Source of the DNA: an uncultured Porphyromonadaceae bacterium
GTDB taxonomy: Bacteria > Bacteroidota > Bacteroidia > Bacteroidales > Muribaculaceae
Assembly: GCA_947174305.1 (NCBI GenBank)
Contig: CAMWIH010000005.1
Span: 1-42,395, forward strand
Direction: 5' to 3'
DNA length: 42,395 nt
The notes beneath the pieces are model-generated. The model was not told where the DNA came from, did no database searches, and saw only the letters and a program-made list of their open reading frames with translations. This document shows, in pieces, positions 1,898 through 32,344 of the stretch (within the stretch, counting starts at the first letter, position 1; every line of letters begins with the position of its first letter). Position numbers and translations under genes: made by a program.

Positions 1898-3124
1898 TTA
1901 CATCTGGCGGTAGTCTTTGGCGAGGCCGCCGGCGCCGGTCTCTTTATAGAGCGAGGGGAGGTCGTGGCCTGTCTCGCGCATCACGTTCACGAGCTTGTCG
2001 AAGCTGACGCGGTGTGTGCCGTCGGAGAAGGAGCTGTAGATGTTGGCATCCAAGGCGCGGGCGGCCGCATAGGCATTACGCTCGATGCAAGGTATCTGAA
2101 CCAATCCGCACACAGGGTCGCAGGTCATTCCCAGATGATGCTCCAATCCCATCTCGGCGGCATATTCTATCTGTGCCGGCGAACCTCCAAACAGCTGGTT
2201 GGCGGCAGCGGCGGCCATGGCACATGCCACTCCTACCTCTCCCTGACAACCTACCTCCGCACCGGAGATAGAGGCATTCTGCTTCACCACGTTACCGATG
2301 AGTCCGGCAGTGGCCAAGGCGCGAAGTATCCTCTCTTCAGGGAGATCGCGACTCTTCCATATATGATATAGAACGCCCGGCAACACACCGCACGATCCAC
2401 AGGTGGGAGCGGTGCATATCACACCTCCCGAGGCATTCTCCTCGCTGACCGCCAAGGCGTAAGCAAAGGTGAGACCACGCGATTTGAGATTATCGCGATA
2501 GCCGGTGGCCTTCACGTAATACTGTGGTGCCTTTCGACGCAGGTTAAGCGGGCCCGGCAAACGACCTTCGCGGTTGATGCCGCGCTCCACTGCCTCGCGC
2601 ATCGTTTTCCACACTTCGCGAAGATAATCCCAGATCTCCTTTCCCTCGCATGCCTCGACATATTCCCAATAGCCACGGCCGGTGCGCTCGCAATAATTCA
2701 TTATGTCGGTAAGTTCGTTGAGCGCATATATCTCGGCACTCTCCGAAGTGGCATCGCCTTCAATCTCGATGGCACCCCCTCCGACGCTATAGACTGTCAT
2801 CTCGTAAAGAGGAGCGGTGTCGGGGGTGTAATCCTCGGTGTTGAAAGCGCGGAAAGTGACGGCATTGGGATGGCGTTCGAGGAACGTTTCAGGGAGCCAG
2901 GTGATCTTCACGGGCTTCCCGGTGCGGTTAATCACGTCGAGTATGGCTTCGTCGGTGAGGTGACCTTTGCCTGTGGCGGCCAATGAACCATAAAGCACAA
3001 CTTCGTAAGCGACCGCTCCTTCGGGAGAGCGATGCAGGAACTCTTCGGCAGCTTTACGCGGACCCATGGTGTGAGAAGAGGAGGGGCCGCTGCCGATACG
3101 GAATATTTCACGGATTGATTTCAT
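1898..3124 (-). CDS. sdaA: L-serine ammonia-lyase (L-serine dehydratase), single chain
   Basis: Converts L-serine to pyruvate and ammonia with a 4Fe-4S cluster that acts as Lewis acid. At 408 residues it is a fused single-chain form in which the alpha and beta halves of split enzymes are joined. The N-terminus has the characteristic GSGPSSSHTMGP segment (12-23). Cluster-related cysteines occur in CTAPTCGSCG (about 237-246) and in the block around MTCDPVCGLVQIPC (about 334-347). The start at 3124 precedes the conserved N-terminal region directly. The 9-bp periodic repeat array separates it from the U32 gene upstream, while the MntA/HepT pair follows closely downstream. Cytosolic amino-acid catabolism. 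Confidence 0.95.
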   Translation of the reverse strand: MKSIREIFRIGSGPSSSHTMGPRKAAEEFLHRSPEGAVAYEVVLYGSLAATGKGHLTDEAILDVINRTGKPVKITWLPETFLERHPNAVTFRAFNTEDYTPDTAPLYEMTVYSVGGGAIEIEGDATSESAEIYALNELTDIMNYCERTGRGYWEYVEACEGKEIWDYLREVWKTMREAVERGINREGRLPGPLNLRRKAPQYYVKATGYRDNLKSRGLTFAYALAVSEENASGGVICTAPTCGSCGVLPGVLYHIWKSRDLPEERILRALATAGLIGNVVKQNASISGAEVGCQGEVGVACAMAAAAANQLFGGSPAQIEYAAEMGLEHHLGMTCDPVCGLVQIPCIERNAYAAARALDANIYSSFSDGTHRVSFDKLVNVMRETGHDLPSLYKETGAGGLAKDYRQM

Positions 3125-3134
3125 AGTCTTTTCT

Positions 3135-3242
3135 TTATTAGGCGGGATAGGCGAGGTAGGCGATTTAGGCGGGATAGGCAGAATGCCTATGATGCCTATA
3201 TTGCCTATTATGCCTATATTGCCTATATTGCCTATTATGCCA
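3135..3242. repeat. Two-armed 9-bp periodic array between U32 gene and sdaA
   Basis: About twelve consecutive nine-base units. The first five read NNNNTAGGC-like (for example GGGATAGGC, GAGGTAGGC). The next seven read ATNNTGCCT-like (ATGATGCCT, ATATTGCCT). The two halves are complementary in the conserved positions, so the spacer can fold into a long interrupted hairpin in either strand. The last unit contains the TAA stop codon of the U32 gene (3235-3237), and the first unit lies about ten bases before the sdaA start. Three further arrays with the same period and core occur in this window. Confidence 0.9.
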
Positions 3243-4482
3243 AGTCAGTCTCTGCCCAAAGATACAATCGGTCGGAGGGTCTCACTTTTGCCGGCACCGG
3301 CATTGAGAACAGCTGTCCTTTCTCCACTTTCTCCACAGGCTTGAGGTCGAAGCGCAGTTCCTCCACTTTGCTGATAATGGCACCGGTGGTGGGGCCGGTG
3401 ATGACAATCTCGTCGCCTACCTTCAATTCGCCGGCTTCCATATAGAACTCCCCTACCCCAATCTTGGAGAAATAACGTATTGCCTTGGCCACATACCTCT
3501 TCACCCTGGTGGCGGAACTGCCATATTTGGCACTCCATTCGCCAAGACGTTCACCAAGGTAATAACCGTTCCAGAAACCGCGGTTGAACACTTTCCTCAA
3601 GCGTTCCTCCCATCCCGCTATCCGCTCTTCGGTGAATTCGCCGGCAATGATTGCCTCGATCGCCTCGGAATAGCATCTCACGGTTTCATAGACATATTCG
3701 GGCCCGCGGGCACGTCCCTCAATCTTGAACACGGTGACGCCGGCATCAATCATCTTGTTAAGGAAATGGATGGTCTTCAGATCCTTGGGCGACATTATAT
3801 ATTGATTCTCTATGTCAAGTTCTTCACCGGTCTCGCGGTCGCGCACGGTGTAGGAACGGCGACAAATCTGGTTGCAGGCACCGCGGTTTGCACTGGAGTT
3901 CATCTCGTGAAGGCTCATGTAGCATTTGCCACTCACGGCCATGCAAAGGGCACCATGACAGAACATCTCCAGACCGACGCGACGGCCGGAGGGGCCACAT
4001 ATATTCTCCTCGCGGATCACTTTCGAAATCTCGCCCACCTGCTCCATATTCAGCTCACGCGCGAGCACCATCACATCGGCAAACTGCGAATAGAATTTCA
4101 CCGCCTCGGCATTGCTCACATTCACCTGCGTGGAGATATGAACCTCCTGTCCAATCTCGCGTGCATAGAGTATGGCGGCCATATCGGCGGCGATTATCGC
4201 GGAGATGCCGGCCTCCTTTGCGCGCCGGATGATGGTGCGCATGGTCTCCATATCGGAATCATAGATGACGGTGTTAACGGTGAGGTAGGTCTTGACACCT
4301 CTCTCCGAACAGTAGGCGGCAATCTCGGCCATATCGTCGGCAGTGAAGTTGGCACTCGACCGCGACCGCATGTTCAGTCCTTCAATGCCGAAATAGACGG
4401 CATCAGCCCCCGCCTCGATGGCGGCGGCCAGTGATTCGCGACTCCCCACGGGAGCCATTATCTCAAAATCCTTGCGGGTCAT
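3235..4482 (-). CDS. Peptidase U32 family protein (TrhP/YegQ-like)
   Basis: 415-residue member of the U32 family. The N-terminal block IMAPVGSRESLAAAIEAGADAVYFG (residues 8-32) is the family hallmark. A cysteine set CHGALCMAVSGKC (about 169-181) followed by CNQIC (about 198-202) matches the probable iron-sulfur site of bacterial U32 proteins. YegQ (TrhP) relatives are needed for hydroxylation of uridine 34 in tRNA, and RlhA hydroxylates 23S rRNA, so an RNA-modification role is more likely than proteolysis. The C-terminal 80 residues look like the extra beta domain of TrhP-type proteins. It starts 14 bases after the stop of the upstream ubiE gene, so they share an operon. Exact substrate unknown. 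Confidence 0.88.
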   Translation of the reverse strand: MTRKDFEIMAPVGSRESLAAAIEAGADAVYFGIEGLNMRSRSSANFTADDMAEIAAYCSERGVKTYLTVNTVIYDSDMETMRTIIRRAKEAGISAIIAADMAAILYAREIGQEVHISTQVNVSNAEAVKFYSQFADVMVLARELNMEQVGEISKVIREENICGPSGRRVGLEMFCHGALCMAVSGKCYMSLHEMNSSANRGACNQICRRSYTVRDRETGEELDIENQYIMSPKDLKTIHFLNKMIDAGVTVFKIEGRARGPEYVYETVRCYSEAIEAIIAGEFTEERIAGWEERLRKVFNRGFWNGYYLGERLGEWSAKYGSSATRVKRYVAKAIRYFSKIGVGEFYMEAGELKVGDEIVITGPTTGAIISKVEELRFDLKPVEKVEKGQLFSMPVPAKVRPSDRLYLWAETDLA

Positions 4483-5307: not shown

Positions 5308-6435
5308 TCAAAGTTTCTTCTGGAATGAACGGCGATGACGGTGCTGACGGGTAACGAAATATTCCCATTGACTCTGCACCTTGGAGTTGGTCTCCATCTC
5401 CGGATTCGACTCGGCATACTTGAAGCCATATTTCTGGAAATATGGTATAAGGTCGGTGAAAAGCAGTGCATTCACCCCTTTGTTCTGATATTCGGGAGCC
5501 ACAGCCACAAGCAGGAGATCCACACGGTCGTTCTTCCCTTTCAGTCCCTTCAGGAGATGATACCAGCCGAAGGGGAAGAGTGCGCCCTGCGATTTCTGAA
5601 GCGCACGGCTCATTGAGGGCATCGATATACCCACACCCACCAGGCGCCCCTCCTTGTCGATAACGAGGGATACAAGGTCGAGATTCAGCAAGCCGAGATA
5701 TATGTCGATATAATATTCTATCTGCCGCTCGGTGAGGGTGGAATATTGGTAGAGATCCTTGTACGCGTCGTTGATAAGGTGGAAAAGGGCGTGGCCATAT
5801 TCCTTCTTGATACGGTTTCGGCTGGTGTATTTAAGCACCCTGAGCCCATATTTCTTCTTCACGATCTCAGCAATGCGTGCATATTTCTCAGGTATGGCAT
5901 CCGGCACCTCCATCACAAATTCGAGCCAGTCGGATTCCTTAGTGTAGCCAAGGCGCTCCATGTGTTCCACATAATATGGATAGTTATAGATGGTGGCCAT
6001 TGTGCCGAGTTCCTCATACCCTCCGGTGAGCATGCCTTCGTGGTCAAGGTCGGTGAAACCGAGGGGCCCGATAATCTTCTTCATACCCTTCTTGCGCGCC
6101 CAGTCCTCGACCGCCTCCATAAGGGCGGCCGACACCTCATGATCGTCGATGAAATCGATAAATCCGAAGCGCGCTGTCTTGGATTTAGATTTCTCATTCA
6201 CCTGGCGGTTGATGATTCCGGCCACGCGCCCCACAGGCTTGCCGTCGCGATAGGCCATGAAGTACTTCGCATCGCAAAACTCGAACGCAGGATTCTCTTC
6301 AGGATTCAATGTGGCCACATCATCTGAAATCAATGGCGGCACGAAATAAGGATTCCCCTTGTAGAGGTCGATCTGAAATTTCGTGAATTTCTTGAGATTA
6401 CCCTTGGTAGGGGTTATTTCCTTTATCTCTAACAT
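5308..6435 (-). CDS. GNAT-fold acyltransferase-like protein, conserved in Bacteroidetes
   Basis: 375-residue protein with no assigned substrate. The C-terminal part contains an acetyl-CoA-binding-type motif A, with the beta strand and turn at LLLVAVAPEYQNKGVNALL (about 308-326), typical of GNAT folds. The N-terminal half (KFQIDLYKGNPYFVPPL, 21-37) is a second GNAT-like half that is conserved in large hypothetical acetyltransferases of this phylum. The last 15 residues are rich in arginine, histidine and lysine. It lies in the same minus-strand run as ubiE and the pseudokinase, with a one-armed 9-bp repeat array in front of it. Function unknown beyond probable acyl transfer. Confidence 0.75.
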   Translation of the reverse strand: MLEIKEITPTKGNLKKFTKFQIDLYKGNPYFVPPLISDDVATLNPEENPAFEFCDAKYFMAYRDGKPVGRVAGIINRQVNEKSKSKTARFGFIDFIDDHEVSAALMEAVEDWARKKGMKKIIGPLGFTDLDHEGMLTGGYEELGTMATIYNYPYYVEHMERLGYTKESDWLEFVMEVPDAIPEKYARIAEIVKKKYGLRVLKYTSRNRIKKEYGHALFHLINDAYKDLYQYSTLTERQIEYYIDIYLGLLNLDLVSLVIDKEGRLVGVGISMPSMSRALQKSQGALFPFGWYHLLKGLKGKNDRVDLLLVAVAPEYQNKGVNALLFTDLIPYFQKYGFKYAESNPEMETNSKVQSQWEYFVTRQHRHRRSFQKKL

Positions 6436-6445
6436 AGCTTTTCTC

Positions 6446-6497
6446 TATTTAGGCTTTTTAGGCGCGTTAGGCGCAGTAGGCAATTTAGGTGGGATGA
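6446..6497. repeat. One-armed 9-bp periodic array
   Basis: Five units of nine bases with the TAGGC core: CTATTTAGGC, TTTTTAGGC, GCGTTAGGC, GCAGTAGGC and AATTTAGGT. It lies between the pseudokinase stop codon (6515) and the start of the GNAT-like gene (6435). Unlike the arrays at 3135 and 7311 there is no complementary GCCTA half, so it cannot form the long hairpin. Confidence 0.8.
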
Positions 6498-6514: not shown

Positions 6515-7282
6515 TTATCCTTTAGTCACGAGCCAGAGGAGAAGGCAGGCCATGAGGACGATGAAGGTGCAGATGAAGATGAAAATCTGGCCGGAGTTGC
6601 GCTTCTCCATAGCCAACTGCACATCGGCAATGGAACGATATGGGGAGGGATTCTCCTCGCAATGCTTGGCAATGCGGCGAAGGCGCGGAAGCGTGGTGGG
6701 AAGATGATCGAGCACTTCATTGAGCACCCGGCCGTAGCTGTGGATATCCTCGTTGGTGTCTTGAGCCGAAAGGGAACCCACCTGGTCGTAGCCTACATTG
6801 ATAAGCTTGAGGTTCTCGTTATATTCGGTGAAGATTATAGTGTCGGGGGTGATCGGAGTATGCACTATATGGTTCTCCTGAATATATTCCATGGCATCGA
6901 GAAGCTGTGTCTGGAGACGGTGAACAATCTTGGGGGTGAGGCGTTTCTCGTCGATGAGCCTGCGGAGCGAATATCCATAAACATCATCGGTGATTATGGC
7001 CTTACCCACACCGGGTACCTCCTCGAAATCGTTCACCATCACTATGTTGGCATGAGCCAGGTTATAGCGGGTGTCGAACTCCTGCTCCAGCATGGCGAGA
7101 TACTTGGGATCGTCGGCATATTCCTTTTTCAAGGCTTTCAGCATAACCCATTTGCCATGCTTGCGCACGGTATAGACATCATAGTATTTCTCCTCCCATT
7201 CGGGCAGGAGAGTGAGTTCGGTCCATTTTCCCGAGGGATCGTCGATCTCAATCTTTTTCTCGTTTTTGCTGATATATTCCAC
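6515..7282 (-). CDS. Tail-anchored protein pseudokinase
   Basis: 255 residues with a protein-kinase-like fold that appears catalytically dead. The beta-3 lysine is present (K49 in VMLKAL). The catalytic HRDLKPxN loop reads HTPITPDT (141-148), so the catalytic aspartate is proline and the metal-binding asparagine is threonine. The DFG triplet reads NVG (162-164). The later DIHSYGRVLNEVL (179-191) matches the kinase F-helix. A single hydrophobic segment at about 232-252 with a short tail predicts a tail-anchored inner-membrane protein with the kinase domain in the cytosol. The start must be GTG at 7282, because no in-frame ATG occurs before the upstream stop. Probable scaffold or regulatory role; partner unknown. 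Confidence 0.75.
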   Translation of the reverse strand: MEYISKNEKKIEIDDPSGKWTELTLLPEWEEKYYDVYTVRKHGKWVMLKALKKEYADDPKYLAMLEQEFDTRYNLAHANIVMVNDFEEVPGVGKAIITDDVYGYSLRRLIDEKRLTPKIVHRLQTQLLDAMEYIQENHIVHTPITPDTIIFTEYNENLKLINVGYDQVGSLSAQDTNEDIHSYGRVLNEVLDHLPTTLPRLRRIAKHCEENPSPYRSIADVQLAMEKRNSGQIFIFICTFIVLMACLLLWLVTKG

Positions 7283-7310: not shown

Positions 7311-7456
7311 TCTTTTGGGCTTTATGGGCTTTATAGGCAGTGTAGGCTTTATAGGCATTATAGGCATTATGGGCGTCTATTTCGCCCATTTCGCCTATTC
7401 CGCTCATTTCGCCTATTCCACCTATTCCGCCTATTTCGCCCATCCCGCCTATCTCA
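7311..7456. repeat. Long two-armed 9-bp periodic array between serS and the pseudokinase gene
   Basis: Sixteen or so consecutive nine-base units. Seven units ending in GGC (TTTATAGGC, ATTATAGGC, ATTATGGGC) are followed by about nine units with the complementary core (GCCTATTCC, GCCCATTTC). The right end contains the TGA stop codon of serS (7454-7456). The two arms are complementary at the conserved positions and would give an interrupted stem of roughly 60 bases per arm in the transcript. This is the longest of the four arrays here. Confidence 0.9.
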
Positions 7457-8725
7457 ATCGATTATATCGAACCCGGTATATTTCCGTAGGCACTCGGGCA
7501 CCACAATGCCATCGGGGGTCTGATTATTCTCAAGAAGAGCGGCCACGATGCGCGGAAGGGCAAGGGCCGATCCGTTGAGTGTGTGGCAAAGCTGTATCTT
7601 CTTGTTCTCGTCGCGGTAACGGCACTTCAGACGGTTGGCCTGATAAGCCTCGAAATTGGATACGGAGGAAACTTCAAGCCAACGTTTCTGAGCGGCCGAC
7701 CACACCTCAAAGTCGTAGGTTATGGCCGAAGTGAAGCTCATGTCGCCTCCACAGAGACGGAGAATGTGCCACGGCAGCCCTAACTTCTCGAGAAGCCCCT
7801 GCACATGATCTTTCATCTCTTCAAGAGCGGCGTATGAATTTTCCGGTTTTTCGATGCGAACAATCTCCACCTTGTCGAACTGATGCAGACGGTTGAGACC
7901 GCGCACGTCCTTTCCGTAGCTACCGGCCTCGCGACGCCAGCAAGGAGAATAGGCGCAGTTCTTCTTCGGCAACTCAGCGGCGGGTATAATCTCGTCGCGG
8001 TATATGTTGGTGACAGGCACCTCTGCCGTGGGGATGAGGTAGAGGTCATCGGCAGTGACATGATACATCTGCCCTTCCTTGTCGGGAAGCTGGCCTGTGC
8101 CGTAGCCGGAAGCCTGGTTCACCACGAAGGGGGGTTCCACCTCCACATATCCGGCCTTCCACGCTTCATCAAGGAAGAATTGAATCAAGGCACGCTGCAG
8201 GCGCGCTCCCTTGCCTACATAGAACGGGAAACCGGCACCGGTGACTTTCACGCCTGTCTCGAAGTCGATTATGCCATACTTCTTGGCAAGTTCCCAGTGA
8301 GGCAAGGCATCTTCACCGAGTTCAGGCACCTTACCGCCCTCCTTAACCACCACGTTGTCTTCAGCCGTAAGTCCTTCGGGCACTTCAGCGCAGGGGAGGT
8401 TGGGCACAGTGAGGAGCAGGTCGCGCATCTTATCCTCACATTCAGCAAGGCGGTCGTGAAGCCTCTTGGTGGCACCCTTTATGCGGGCCACTTCAGCTTT
8501 CACCGCCTCGGCCTCATCCTTCTTACCTTCCTTCATAAGGGAACCGATGGAAGAGGCGAGTTTCTTAAGCTCGGAAGCGTCGGAATCACATTTCTGCTGC
8601 AATCGGCGACGCTCCGCGTCGATTTCCAATATTTCGGTTATCACGCCGCGGCCATCAAAGCCTTTCACGGCAAGACGGTTGATCACAAATTCAGGATCAT
8701 TCTTTATTGTCTGAAGGGTAAGCAT
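7454..8725 (-). CDS. serS: Seryl-tRNA synthetase
   Basis: 423-residue class II aminoacyl-tRNA synthetase that charges tRNA-Ser and tRNA-Sec. The N-terminal coiled-coil arm (about 25-105) is followed by the catalytic domain. Class II motif 2 is visible in SPCWRREAGSYGKDVRGLNRLHQFDKVEIV (about 262-291). Motif 3 is at HTLNGSALALPRIVAALLENNQ (about 383-404), followed by PECLRKYTGF. Length and start are normal. The gene ends inside a 9-bp repeat array. A 40-base spacer of 7-8 bp repeats separates it from the upstream yqeY gene. Cytosolic and essential. Confidence 0.97.
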   Translation of the reverse strand: MLTLQTIKNDPEFVINRLAVKGFDGRGVITEILEIDAERRRLQQKCDSDASELKKLASSIGSLMKEGKKDEAEAVKAEVARIKGATKRLHDRLAECEDKMRDLLLTVPNLPCAEVPEGLTAEDNVVVKEGGKVPELGEDALPHWELAKKYGIIDFETGVKVTGAGFPFYVGKGARLQRALIQFFLDEAWKAGYVEVEPPFVVNQASGYGTGQLPDKEGQMYHVTADDLYLIPTAEVPVTNIYRDEIIPAAELPKKNCAYSPCWRREAGSYGKDVRGLNRLHQFDKVEIVRIEKPENSYAALEEMKDHVQGLLEKLGLPWHILRLCGGDMSFTSAITYDFEVWSAAQKRWLEVSSVSNFEAYQANRLKCRYRDENKKIQLCHTLNGSALALPRIVAALLENNQTPDGIVVPECLRKYTGFDIID

Positions 8726-15381: not shown

Positions 15382-15436
15382 ATTATTGCATCATGATGAA
15401 ACATAATGCAACATGATTTATCATGACAGGATTAAA

Positions 15437-23734: not shown

Positions 23735-24181
23735 CTATAATTTCTCGCTCTCATCTTCAGGGATATAGGAAATCTCCTTCATCTCCTTATATTCCTCCCA
23801 TCCCGGATCGGCCTCCGCTTCTATGACAAGAGGCATCTGATCAAGATCGGCAAGAGCATGGTTGAACACCTTATTGAAAATATTCAGATTCTTGGTATAG
23901 AAAATCCAGTCGCGGCGACCGTCGCCGGTATAGATTCCGGTCATATATGCCACCTTATCTTTCTTGAACGCCGACTGCAATGCATCGGTGGTCTTCTCCA
24001 TAAGTTCGGCATCAGCATTTTCCGGCATCCCGTTAGGAAGACGGTTATAATCCCAGCTGACAGTTACGCGATAAATATATTTTCCGCCTGCAATCACCTC
24101 ATCCATACAGTCACGTCCGGTAACGAGCACCGTCGCGCCGCTCTCGCTCTCAGTCGGAGCTGTCCACCATCTCTCTTTCAT
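23735..24181 (-). CDS. DUF695 domain protein
   Basis: 148 residues. The opening ERWWTAPTESESGATVLVTGR and the block TGDGRRDWIFYTKNLNIFNKVFNHAL (about 86-111) match the DUF695 pattern of small cytosolic proteins of unknown role. There is no signal peptide or membrane segment. It is separated from the DUF2027 gene by a 9-bp periodic array and precedes the GH13 gene by 57 bases. Function unknown. Confidence 0.78.
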   Translation of the reverse strand: MKERWWTAPTESESGATVLVTGRDCMDEVIAGGKYIYRVTVSWDYNRLPNGMPENADAELMEKTTDALQSAFKKDKVAYMTGIYTGDGRRDWIFYTKNLNIFNKVFNHALADLDQMPLVIEAEADPGWEEYKEMKEISYIPEDESEKL

Positions 24182-24188
24182 ATATAGT

Positions 24189-24248
24189 CTTATTTGCCCA
24201 TATTGCCTATTTTGCCTATAATGCCTATCTCGCCCATCTCGCCTATCA
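24189..24248. repeat. One-armed 9-bp periodic array between DUF2027 and DUF695 genes
   Basis: Six to seven units of nine bases with the core GCCTAT or GCCCAT (ATATTGCCT, ATTTTGCCT, ATAATGCCT, ATCTCGCCC, ATCTCGCCT). The array starts about eight bases upstream of the DUF695 ATG and runs into the TGA stop of the DUF2027 gene (24246-24248). Confidence 0.85.
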
Positions 24249-24944
24249 CCTCTCAGAGTAAATAGGCACCTCTATTACCGGAGTGTCGAAATAGACCCCG
24301 GGACGGAAACAATGCATCTTGAAAAACTTGGTCAGATCTATCTTGCGCGACACATTGATCGGATATTTCACCTGGAAAGGCTTTCCTTTCTTGTAGGCTA
24401 TTGCCTGAAACACCACTCGCTCCATCTCAGAGATATTCTCCTGAGAGAAAACGGCACAATCAATGAGTTCATTGGGCGAGACCTCTCCCTGATAAAGATT
24501 CTTCCATGCCTTTGCCTCGTCATCGCGAACCATAAGGTTGAATGAAAGGAAATAATTGGAATCATTCACAAGCACGGCGGCAATGCGAGTGCGCGAAAGA
24601 TCCTTTATGTTTTCAGGTTCAAATCCCAGAACAATGTTGATGCTCTCGCCCCTCTCAGTCTCCACCACCGGCAACTCCTCCTTGGGAGCCTCTGCCTCAC
24701 GCTGAGCCTTCGGATTCTCGCGGGTCTTCTTTTTACCTTCATCGAAAGCCTTCTGATCGAACATGAGCGCGGAACCCTTCACCGCAGGCTCATGACCGGC
24801 GGGAAGCACCACCACAAGTTCGCTCACCAAAACAGGGGTCTCAAAGCCATCCTCCTCCACGTATGCGATCTTTCCCTCAATCCGGGTTATGCGTCCTCCT
24901 CCCGTGGAGTTAAGAAAGCGGACTGTATCTCCTGTTTTTGCCAT
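24246..24944 (-). CDS. DUF2027 protein without Smr domain
   Basis: 232 residues. The N-terminal 50 residues (AKTGDTVRFLNSTGGGRITRIEGKIAYVEEDGFETPVLVSELVVV) form the typical DUF2027 barrel. A charged linker follows (about 70-100), then a beta-rich domain (about 100-232). Most Bacteroidetes proteins of this type that I know continue into an Smr nuclease-like domain; here the protein ends at VIEVPIYSER and the stop lies in the periodic repeat. Possible loss of the Smr part or a natural short form. The ATG at 24944 fits the conserved start; an upstream ATG at 24971 would add nine residues. It follows phoH by 34 bases. Confidence 0.75.
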   Translation of the reverse strand: MAKTGDTVRFLNSTGGGRITRIEGKIAYVEEDGFETPVLVSELVVVLPAGHEPAVKGSALMFDQKAFDEGKKKTRENPKAQREAEAPKEELPVVETERGESINIVLGFEPENIKDLSRTRIAAVLVNDSNYFLSFNLMVRDDEAKAWKNLYQGEVSPNELIDCAVFSQENISEMERVVFQAIAYKKGKPFQVKYPINVSRKIDLTKFFKMHCFRPGVYFDTPVIEVPIYSER

Positions 24945-24978
24945 TATTTTATTATATGTTATTCTATTCAATTCTGAA

Positions 24979-30244: not shown

Positions 30245-32215
30245 ATGAATAGACTGACTTTCCTTACAACATGCGCTGCCGTCTGCCTAACCATGGCTTC
30301 CGCGCTTCCGGCACATGCCGATAAGAAAAAGAATGTGCTCGACATTAAGCAGAGCATAACCGACGAGAATATTGTGTTCCCCGAGGCTAATTATGAAGCC
30401 GAGAGCCGCAAGATGCTCGAGGGGTGGTATATGCAGAATTATATGGCCACCGACGACCGGTACAGCTCGAAAGAGGATGTCCCGACTTCCGACGACACTT
30501 ACCGCCGCCGCCTTTCCCAACTGCCAACAATTATAGAAATGCCTTTCAATCAGGTGGTGAAAAGCCATATCGAACGCTACACAAAAAAGGGACGTCCGAT
30601 GGTGGCCTCACTCCTCGGATTGAGCAATTATTACATGCCTATCTTCGAGCAGGCTCTCGAAGAACAGGGTTTGCCGCTGGAACTAAAGTATCTCCCCATA
30701 ATCGAGTCGGCTCTCGAACCGAACGCTGTTTCAAAATCCGGCGCAACGGGCCTCTGGCAGTTCATGCTCGCCACAGCTAAAGGTCTGAACATGGAGGTTA
30801 ACTCCCTTGTGGATGAACGTCGCGACCCTTACATCTCCTCTCATCGCGCCGCCAAATTCCTTAAGGACCTGTACAATACGTATGGAAACTGGAATCTCGT
30901 GATTGCAGCCTACAACTGCGGTCCGGGGAACGTGAACAAGGCCCTGCGCCGTGCAGGTGGCGACCCCTCTCAACTCGACTATTGGGCTATCTACAACTAT
31001 CTTCCGGCCGAAACCCGCGGGTATGTGCCGGCATTCATTGCGGCTAACTATGTAATGACTTATTACAAAGATCATAACATCAGTCCCGTGATTCCCACGC
31101 GCCCACTTGTCACCGACACCCTGCATATAGACAAGCGCGTTCATTTCAACCAGATTTCCAAGGTGCTGAATATACCGGTAGAGGAGTTAAGGATGCTTAA
31201 CCCTCAGTTCCGTGCCGACCTCATCCCCGGAAATGAATCAAAAGCATATAACCTTATCCTCCCATCGCAGCAGATGCACGCATACCTTATGAGCGAAGAG
31301 GATATCCTCGCTTACGATTCAGAGAAATATGCGCGCCGCATCGATGTTGAACCAGGCAAGATATCGGGCGCAGTCGAGACAACCGACACATTCATAGCGG
31401 AGGCCGACATACAGCCTGATGCATACCAGGAGATGGCTGAGGCTCCCCAGATGAGGAAACCGGCTGAAGCCACTGCATCAAAATCATCACAAACGAAGGC
31501 TTCCTCCGACTCCAGGACACTCGGACCATCCGATACAAAGACAAGGACACACAAGGTGGAACCGGGCGAATCAATCGCTTCCATATCGGCAAAATATGGC
31601 GTGGCTCCGGAGCAGTTGAAGGAATGGAACAATCTGCGTCGCAATTCAGTGCGCACCGGTCAGGTGCTAAAAATCAGCGGTGGTGAATACCAATCCCGTT
31701 CCAACCAATCTGTAGCCGAGACTCCTTCAAGAAAATCTACCAATGCCTCTTCTCCGTCAGAACAGGCAAGGAAATCCGATCCGGCATCTTCCAAGAGGAA
31801 ACCGGCATCCGAGGAACAGGCATCCACTCCACGTAAAAACAAGGCCAACACACCTCAGGCAGTGGCCACAGCCAAGAAAGGAACTTCAAAGGAGGCTCAG
31901 GAAGCAACAGCCGGAAAGAGGAAAGGGAAGAAAGCCACAGCAGCGGCCACCCCTGCCCAGCCTCAGGAGCACGTGGTGAAGAGCGGAGAATCTTACGACC
32001 GCATTGCCCGCAAATATGGCGTGACCACAGAGGAACTGAAGAGAGCCAACAACGCCACGAGCGATATGATACGACCCGATCAGAAACTCAAGATTCCAAA
32101 GAAAAAGGCTGAGAAGGCCACATCTACTTCTTCAAAATCAAAGAGTGGCGCTGCATCATCTTCTTCGAAATCTTCCAAGTCATCTTCTTCTAAGAAGAAG
32201 TCGAAAAAGAGATAA
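30245..32215 (+). CDS. mltD: Membrane-bound lytic murein transglycosylase D-like, with two LysM domains
   Basis: 656 residues. Signal peptide (1-25, ending AHA). The SLT catalytic domain (about 120-265) contains the catalytic glutamate E154 in PIIESALEPNAVSKSGATGLWQFM and the AAYNCGPGNV block (221-230). A LysM-like segment follows (about 295-350). Two clear LysM domains lie at about 434-477 (HKVEPGESIASISAKYG) and 579-624 (HVVKSGESYDRIARKYG). They are joined by lysine-, serine- and alanine-rich linkers, and the tail is a basic S/K repeat. It cleaves glycan strands of peptidoglycan. It ends the par operon and is followed by a strong terminator. Confidence 0.93.
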   Translation: MNRLTFLTTCAAVCLTMASALPAHADKKKNVLDIKQSITDENIVFPEANYEAESRKMLEGWYMQNYMATDDRYSSKEDVPTSDDTYRRRLSQLPTIIEMPFNQVVKSHIERYTKKGRPMVASLLGLSNYYMPIFEQALEEQGLPLELKYLPIIESALEPNAVSKSGATGLWQFMLATAKGLNMEVNSLVDERRDPYISSHRAAKFLKDLYNTYGNWNLVIAAYNCGPGNVNKALRRAGGDPSQLDYWAIYNYLPAETRGYVPAFIAANYVMTYYKDHNISPVIPTRPLVTDTLHIDKRVHFNQISKVLNIPVEELRMLNPQFRADLIPGNESKAYNLILPSQQMHAYLMSEEDILAYDSEKYARRIDVEPGKISGAVETTDTFIAEADIQPDAYQEMAEAPQMRKPAEATASKSSQTKASSDSRTLGPSDTKTRTHKVEPGESIASISAKYGVAPEQLKEWNNLRRNSVRTGQVLKISGGEYQSRSNQSVAETPSRKSTNASSPSEQARKSDPASSKRKPASEEQASTPRKNKANTPQAVATAKKGTSKEAQEATAGKRKGKKATAAATPAQPQEHVVKSGESYDRIARKYGVTTEELKRANNATSDMIRPDQKLKIPKKKAEKATSTSSKSKSGAASSSSKSSKSSSSKKKSKKR

Positions 32216-32227
32216 GCAATAGGAGAG

Positions 32228-32311
32228 CTTTAAGTTTTAAGATGTAAGTTTTAGGCTTTAAGTTTTAAGATGTAAGTTTTAGGCTTTAAGTTTTAAGACT
32301 TAAGTTTTAAG
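32228..32311. repeat. 28-bp tandem repeat, three copies, after mltD
   Basis: The units start at 32228, 32256 and 32284 with CTTTAAGTTTTAAGATGTAA and share the rest (GTTTTAGG) in the first two copies. The third copy diverges at its end. Within each unit TTTAAG and TTTTAAG recur at 8-10 base spacing. The array lies between the mltD stop and its terminator, within the 3' untranslated region. Confidence 0.85.
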
Positions 32312-32344
32312 AAAAAAAGGATTCGCTTTTGCGAATCCTTTTTT
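32312..32344. terminator. Bidirectional terminator between mltD and slyD
   Basis: A-tract plus GGATTCGC (to 32326), a TTTT loop, then GCGAATCC followed by six T residues (to 32344). The A and T tracts make it a strong intrinsic terminator on both strands between these convergent genes. Confidence 0.9.

Follow-up and report, generated by a model that had tools for sequence, protein, structure and literature searches.

Tandem arrays of a nine-base unit, in which the core TAGGC is followed by four filler bases, are a real, non-random and clade-specific feature of the spacers of an uncultured Porphyromonadaceae bacterium and its sister genome. They look like a further version of the known short-unit spacer repeats whose function is unknown. 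The window analyzed here is a stretch of 42,395 nt (contig CAMWIH010000005.1 of the assembly GCA_947174305.1); its genome is called G000 and the sister genome G042 in the following. Within the window we found 32 matches to TAGGCNNNNTAGGC (TAGGC-N4-TAGGC) with at most one mismatch, while 100 shuffles gave a mean of 1.97 and a largest number of 7. Four arrays (3139-3243, 6450-6490, 7316-7451 and 24196-24245), all flanked by co-directional minus-strand genes, contain 29 of these matches and 3 are located elsewhere. A preliminary description of this DNA had started from the spacer between the U32-family gene and sdaA and had stated that its unit recurs in three further spacers of the window, which corresponds to the last three arrays. 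It had also placed a stop codon within the first array, and indeed the TAA of the U32-family gene at 3235-3237 is followed there by the TAG of the next core. Two arms each were observed in the U32/sdaA spacer and in the spacer between serS and a kinase-like gene, and one arm each in the spacer between the kinase-like gene and gene 5308-6435 and in that between the genes 24246-24971 and 23735-24181 (Table 1). In an Rfam 15 scan of the window only two tRNAs scored above the gathering score, and the arrays match no known structured RNA.

Table 1. Array arms and annotated neighbouring genes in the window
Feature	Position	Strand	Remarks
Array arm, 5 units TAGGC-N4, start side of sdaA	3139..3179	+	operon sense strand reads GCCTA
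Array arm, 7 units (first core TTGGC), stop side of U32-family gene	3185..3243	-	overlaps stop codon
Single array arm, 5 units, start side of gene 5308-6435	6450..6490	+	
Array arm, 7 units, start side of kinase-like gene 6515-7282	7316..7374	+	
Array arm, stop side of serS	7375..7451	-	five clear units at 7411-7451; decayed cores of the same period at 7375-7410
Single array arm, 6 units, directly after stop of gene 24246-24971	24196..24245	-	
sdaA, L-serine ammonia-lyase	1898..3124	-	TIGR00720 above cut-off
U32 / TrhP-like gene	3235..4482	-	below the curated cut-off of each NCBIfam model matched
serS, serine--tRNA ligase	7454..8725	-	TIGR00414 above cut-off

Repeats of other kinds were also seen in the window. 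A separate heptamer array of TTTAAGT/TTTAAGA with a 28-base higher order lies at 32229-32312, 13 bases past the stop of gene 30245-32215. The CATGAT array of period 10 at 15392-15426 is one of three in the examined G000 spacers, and more of them occur in G042 (e.g. L306 at 13749). A tandem GC-rich palindromic element (GCGGAAGCTCGGAGGCTCCCGCC...), which is REP-like, is found at 234-454; relatives of this element are located between both arms of the arrays in L154 and L172.

Extending the search to the whole genome and to related genomes, as had been proposed in the preliminary description, revealed that the arrays form a genome-wide family in G000 which is also present in G042. In G000 we found 145 exact three-unit matches (76 forward and 69 reverse), with 0 and 0 for the reversed control. 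Among 101 genomes (61 of the genus and 40 of the order) many three-unit matches were observed only in G000 (145) and G042 (90), and four others showed 1 to 4. Of 111 genomes of the genus, 3 contain four-unit matches, namely G000 (100), G042 (48) and G127, which has a single homogeneous one, so that the arrays are present in bulk in 2 of the 111. In a tree of four proteins, calculated for the 16 genomes with enough data, G000 and G042 were grouped with a support of 0.999. Among the matches listed there is also a sequence from outside the genus, Prevotella sp. RUG541, with 14 TAGGC-type units and varied C-free fillers (L098 134-255). TAGGCACTT-like repeats were found in several Bacteroidota, Chlorobiota and Deltaproteobacteria records, again among the matches listed.

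The anatomy of the unit was investigated in 400 kb of G000 and 627 kb of G042, which contain 51 arms with 330 units and 50 arms with 282 units, respectively. The core had been described as a fixed TAGGC, which holds for most units (271 of 330 in G000 and 222 of 282 in G042), but a second core, TGGGC, appears regularly (46 of 330 and 35 of 282). The same is true for the nine-base period that was thought never to slip: counting the distances between successive TRGGC cores at most 30 apart, in and near arms, we obtained a step of 9 in 268 of 309 cases in G000 and 206 of 255 cases in G042, but a step of 10 in 15 and 20 cases. The fillers appear in 64 distinct forms in G000 and 65 in G042. They do not vary freely, contrary to the initial impression, as C makes up only 2% of 1000 filler letters in placed arms compared to 16-17% in array-free spacer ends. 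Neighbouring fillers resemble each other less than in within-arm shuffles (0.370 compared to 0.441, z -6). At a distance of two units the similarity is raised in both genomes, at three units in G000 only. From the unlike neighbours and the similarity at a distance of two units it looks as if the arrays were duplicated in blocks of more than one unit, or as if runs of identical units were lost or avoided.

Most arrays are located outside genes. Nine-spaced TRGGC pairs are non-coding in 238 of 272 cases in G000 and in 205 of 222 cases in G042; only 34 of 272 and 17 of 222 lie within called genes, at coding fractions of 0.754 and 0.759, so that the arrays do not occur equally inside genes, in line with the intergenic placement described at the outset. 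Arrays inside open reading frames, with three codons per unit, were noticed in L306 (9281-9339), L153 (11090-11130) and L160 (9987-10081); the translated array of L306 consists of (V/I/M)-G-x repeats, while L153 and L160 encode P-T-x and M-P-x tails near the C termini.

For the orientation of the arms relative to the genes, 49 of the 101 arms could be placed, the rest being located at contig ends, inside called genes or beside gaps below 30 or above 600 bp. Gene starts come from a home-made caller and some of them are wrong; in the G042 spacer L274, for example, a miscall hides the second arm. We observed that 39 of the 49 arms are nearer to the ORF on their own 5' side, i.e. the TAGGC strand points outward (p = 4e-5), with 10 exceptions. 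The median gap between arm and gene is 16 bp on the 5' side and 72 bp on the other side. The outward polarity is also seen for spacers with one called arm (20 of 28, p = 0.04) and between convergent genes (7 of 8). Sorted by the nearest boundary, 24 of 29 arms near stops are in TAGGC sense and 15 of 20 arms near starts in GCCTA sense (Fisher p = 8e-5). Neighbouring arms on opposite strands within 200 bp were convergent in 20 cases and divergent in none. Considering spacers of 30-600 bases, in stretches mostly picked for their arrays, 31 of 268 co-directional, 6 of 32 convergent and 1 of 38 divergent spacers carry an array. The restriction to co-directional flanks thus applies to the four arrays of the window but not to the genome as a whole, where convergent spacers carry arrays as well; the scarcity between divergent genes does not reach significance (p = 0.10).

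Each of the 20 two-armed arrays has a folding energy below that of mononucleotide-shuffled sequences on at least one strand (e.g. -53.7 compared to about -25 kcal/mol), in L159 on one strand only. This strong folding results from the complementary cores alone. The arms had been described as complementary, which is correct for the core, but beyond the core swapping the arms does not lower the match between fillers (6.95 for partner arms compared to 7.76 for swapped arms, p = 0.975, 20 pairs). If anything, partner arms are less alike than swapped ones (0.345 compared to 0.380). Selection for pairing beyond the core is not supported. The lack of compensatory changes in the filler weakens the RNA-hairpin part of the original proposal, an RNA structure or protein-binding array, but not the part that relies on sequence recognition. 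Furthermore, 28 of the 49 placed arms were called alone in their spacer and such arms cannot form a local hairpin.

The comparison of orthologous spacers between the sister genomes revealed that core and arm orientation are largely kept. For 17 of 34 G000 array clusters the orthologous spacer was found in the examined part of G042; 12 of these spacers have the same arm strands, a partial loss was seen in 3 and a complete loss in 2, and no spacer showed a flip. The two-armed state was kept in 4 of 7. Unit numbers and fillers show a fast turnover. In the G042 version of the window operon, which was reached via its proteins rather than via its arrays, the serS-kinase, kinase-5308 and U32-sdaA spacers likewise bear arrays. 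In its U32-sdaA spacer most units of the start-side arm have TGGGC, and TAGGC and TGGGC occur side by side in the other arm, so that part of the sense-strand pairing would be mismatched.

Substitutions were counted in 14 of the 17 orthologous pairs, of which nine gave columns; the poorly alignable pairs 5, 19 and 28 had been left out beforehand. Among the units that could be aligned, 12 of 188 core sites and 27 of 136 filler sites differed (Fisher p = 4e-4), a count biased toward kept cores since units whose core has decayed by more than one base go unrecognised, and a comparison that favours the core because most G042 stretches were chosen for their arrays. In both species one aligned array is part of a reading frame and encodes a proline-rich C-terminal tail (judged by eye for the frame of G042), and when it is left out 9 of 143 core and 26 of 101 filler sites differ. 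At fourfold sites of five window-operon genes 357 of 827 positions differ (0.43). Both core and filler lie below this divergence (p = 2e-20 and 8e-4), from which we infer that the filler is not simply neutral or that the alignable units are a conserved sample. Compared to the other aligned spacer columns, 23 of 242 of which differ, the core is not significantly lower (p = 0.29) and the filler is higher (p = 0.007). No clear conservation gradient from the gene-proximal to the distal end was found in 18 gap-free arm pairs (first-unit filler identity 0.62 compared to 0.56), and array growth at the distal end was rejected for this reason.

To what extent the loci have exchanged sequence can be judged from filler blocks common to different spacers. 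Blocks of two units were found 29 times in G000 (36.5 expected) and 7 times in G042 (9.7 expected), and blocks of three units 0 times in each genome (1.0 and 0.6 expected). As these numbers are not above chance, recent transposition or conversion of long tracts is unlikely, and the extended sequence common to loci that marks REP/BIME or MITE families is missing, with 0 three-unit blocks compared to 1.0 and 0.6 by chance. Old copying with subsequent filler drift is possible, because at the fourfold divergence already reached (0.43) blocks copied early in the stem lineage of the clade would have become unrecognizable. Inverted compared to direct word sharing across spacers, with TAGGC masked, was uninformative.

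Arrays of other words occupy the same gaps in other species. We surveyed 87 orthologous spacers of the window operon with at least 31 bases, from up to 30 genomes per spacer, and 27 of them contain an array with a period of 6 to 10 bases, compared to 0.25 expected from letter shuffles. Six of the 27 are the TAGGC arrays of G000 and G042, and another two consist of A-rich runs with period 6. Among the other words are GTTGTCAGC, GTCTTAA, CATGAT-N4, TAATTCC, GAGAATT and AATTAGC. Several genomes have words in common, namely CATGAT with period 10 (G012, G000, G042), GTTGTC (G005, G055) and TAATTCC (G021, G060), and thus the words are not strictly species-specific. We also found 13 periodic arrays in 280 kb of G021 and 18 in 238 kb of G043. 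In stretches of seven other genomes of the genus there are 15 array spacers compared to 0.4 expected; this survey took ten genomes, three of which yielded no called spacers. G000 itself has further words, GGTTATAA (period 8), CATGAT-N4 (period 10) and a heptamer.

The polarity of the words was surveyed in spacer ends of at most 70 bases, with the orientation of each word named by its majority. CATAAT in G043 is outward at 8 of 8 ends (5 start and 3 stop), TTAGGA in G021 at 6 of 7 ends, all six at starts, and ATAGGC in 15 of 21 cases in G000 and 10 of 12 in G042. No polarity was found in this end survey for the other listed words, e.g. poly-T and palindromic words. The GGTTATAA arrays of period 8 are located in G000 and G042 at L163 3041, L159 3134, L168 7260, L320 10325 and other sites; judged by eye, 8 of 10 are outward from the nearest gene, the exceptions being L152 13688 and L308 6429.

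STRR heptanucleotides of Calothrix and long simple sequence repeats consist of short tandem units, often heptamers, and are species-dependent, while REP/BIME elements are extragenic and form inverted pairs near gene ends. The TAGGC arrays differ from REP/BIME elements by their tandem nonamer arms, their unmatched fillers and the lack of an excess of multi-unit blocks common to loci. What they have in common with short-unit spacer arrays is that tandem units of about 5-11 bases are dispersed at many loci of one genome. In the introductions of PMC4692102 and PMC4679880 no core-plus-filler plan is mentioned for STRR or long simple sequence repeats, unlike the TAGGC arrays.

The view that no described element has this design could not be maintained, since the GGGAATC / GGGGA(C/T)T heptamer arrays of Xanthomonas and Nostoc (Rehm et al. 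2015, PMC4692102) show much the same placement, polarity and convergent pairs. According to the parts of that paper considered here, they are dispersed, mostly intergenic, mostly located between aligned genes and under-represented between divergent genes. Their G-rich strand coincides with the coding strand in the vicinity of stops and with the non-coding strand in the vicinity of starts, and in xanthomonads they are closer to the 5' ORF (28 compared to 160 nt on average). Convergent inverted pairs are numerous (70 and 75 cases), sites and pair type are largely kept between two species while lengths vary, and no function was found in these parts of the study. The TAGGC arrays agree with them in the outward strand rule (39 of 49 arms) and in the convergent inverted pairs (20 compared to 0), but they have a period of 9 instead of 7 and a TRGGC core with four C-poor filler positions, and the core usually contains two consecutive G rather than the GGG tract of the heptamers (TGGGC in 46 of 330 and 35 of 282 units). 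With so few GGG units, a G-quadruplex reading would not carry over.

Heptamer arrays of TAACTGA are described for Beggiatoaceae, Cyanobacteria and five Bacteroidetes (MacGregor 2015, PMC4679880); in the parts of this source considered here they are likewise short-unit, intergenic and near start codons, with relatives lacking them at the corresponding position. Of the 14 sets of F. litoralis, 12 point toward a start codon in forward orientation and one is placed directly behind a stop in reverse orientation, which fits the strand rule of the TAGGC arrays. In contrast to the TAGGC units, TAACTGA is, in the same parts, an invariant heptamer without filler and mostly on the start side in the genome studied. 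Among the titles and abstract openings listed for tandem or nonamer spacer repeats, with subscription journals thinly covered, we found no description of a TAGGC nonamer array, PMC4692102 and PMC4679880 being nearest. RRM proteins of the RbpB type were discarded as candidate readers: the part of PMC11697453 that we considered has a 41-nt motif in sRNAs and no link to UAGGC, and a single-strand RNA reader would also leave the opposite sense of the start-side arms unexplained.

We tentatively favour, with a confidence that stays somewhat short of even, the explanation that the arrays represent a dialect, specific to this clade, of the short-unit tandem repeats in spacers of cyanobacteria, Xanthomonas and Beggiatoaceae, in which the core is read in trans and the filler drifts C-free. 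A trans-acting DNA- or RNA-binding factor that reads the core many times over would keep it constant, and the C-free and uneven filler would leave the arm unstructured and avoid unstable perfect direct repeats and palindromes. The arrays would grow and shrink by blocks of two or three units instead of single ones. With an arm at both gene ends the transcript could form a register-free zipper of five-base helices, and such a zipper may separate the expression of neighbouring genes, which is the weakest step. Alternatively, the arrays could be functionless minisatellites: an early array was copied around the genome of the ancestor and then changed by slippage and drift, and the constancy of the core reflects uncounted decay together with a bias of replication or recombination. 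This is a serious though doubtful possibility. It agrees with the fast turnover of unit number and filler between the sisters, with the abundance of periodic arrays of other words in the genus, with a core not significantly below other aligned spacer columns (p = 0.29) and with a fourfold divergence (0.43) at which early stem copying leaves no common blocks. However, the core changes far less than fourfold sites (in the count biased toward kept cores), polarity and convergent pairing are not random, the blocks common to spacers are not above chance (29 compared to 36.5 and 7 compared to 9.7; 0 compared to 1.0 and 0.6), and adjacent fillers are less alike than chance instead of more.

Inter-cistron RNA hairpins formed by pairing of the arms could stabilise or process the operon mRNA in a REP/BIME-like manner, which we regard as unlikely. 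Each of the 20 two-armed arrays has at least one strand that folds below shuffled energy, arms on opposite strands converge in every case and two arms are retained in 4 of 7 orthologous spacers, but the filler pairing of partner arms is not above that of swapped arms (p = 0.975), many spacers have one called arm, and complementary cores alone give strong folding. Quite unlikely in our judgement is a whole-genome code in turnover, with one or few spacer words per lineage that are read by fast-changing trans-acting factors and syntenic gaps that are re-populated outward; some words are common to several species and the G021 word is outward at start ends only, which argues against it. A repeat-adding repair, in which broken spacer ends are extended 5' to 3' with the repeat and rejoined, would yield outward arms and convergent pairs and would thereby account for the polarity at starts and stops and for the lack of divergent pairs, but without a clear proximal-distal conservation gradient (0.62 compared to 0.56, 18 arm pairs) we consider it highly improbable.

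Several phyla have spacer arrays of short units whose function is not established. The core-plus-filler plan of the TAGGC arrays separates a part that is kept from a part that drifts, and the sister pair G000/G042 brackets the origin of the TAGGC dialect. The polarity rule, reported for G-rich heptamers, extends to a word that is not G-rich (CATAAT in G043). The syntenic spacers of other species carry other words. Together these features make it directly testable what reads the word and whether polarity and core matter.
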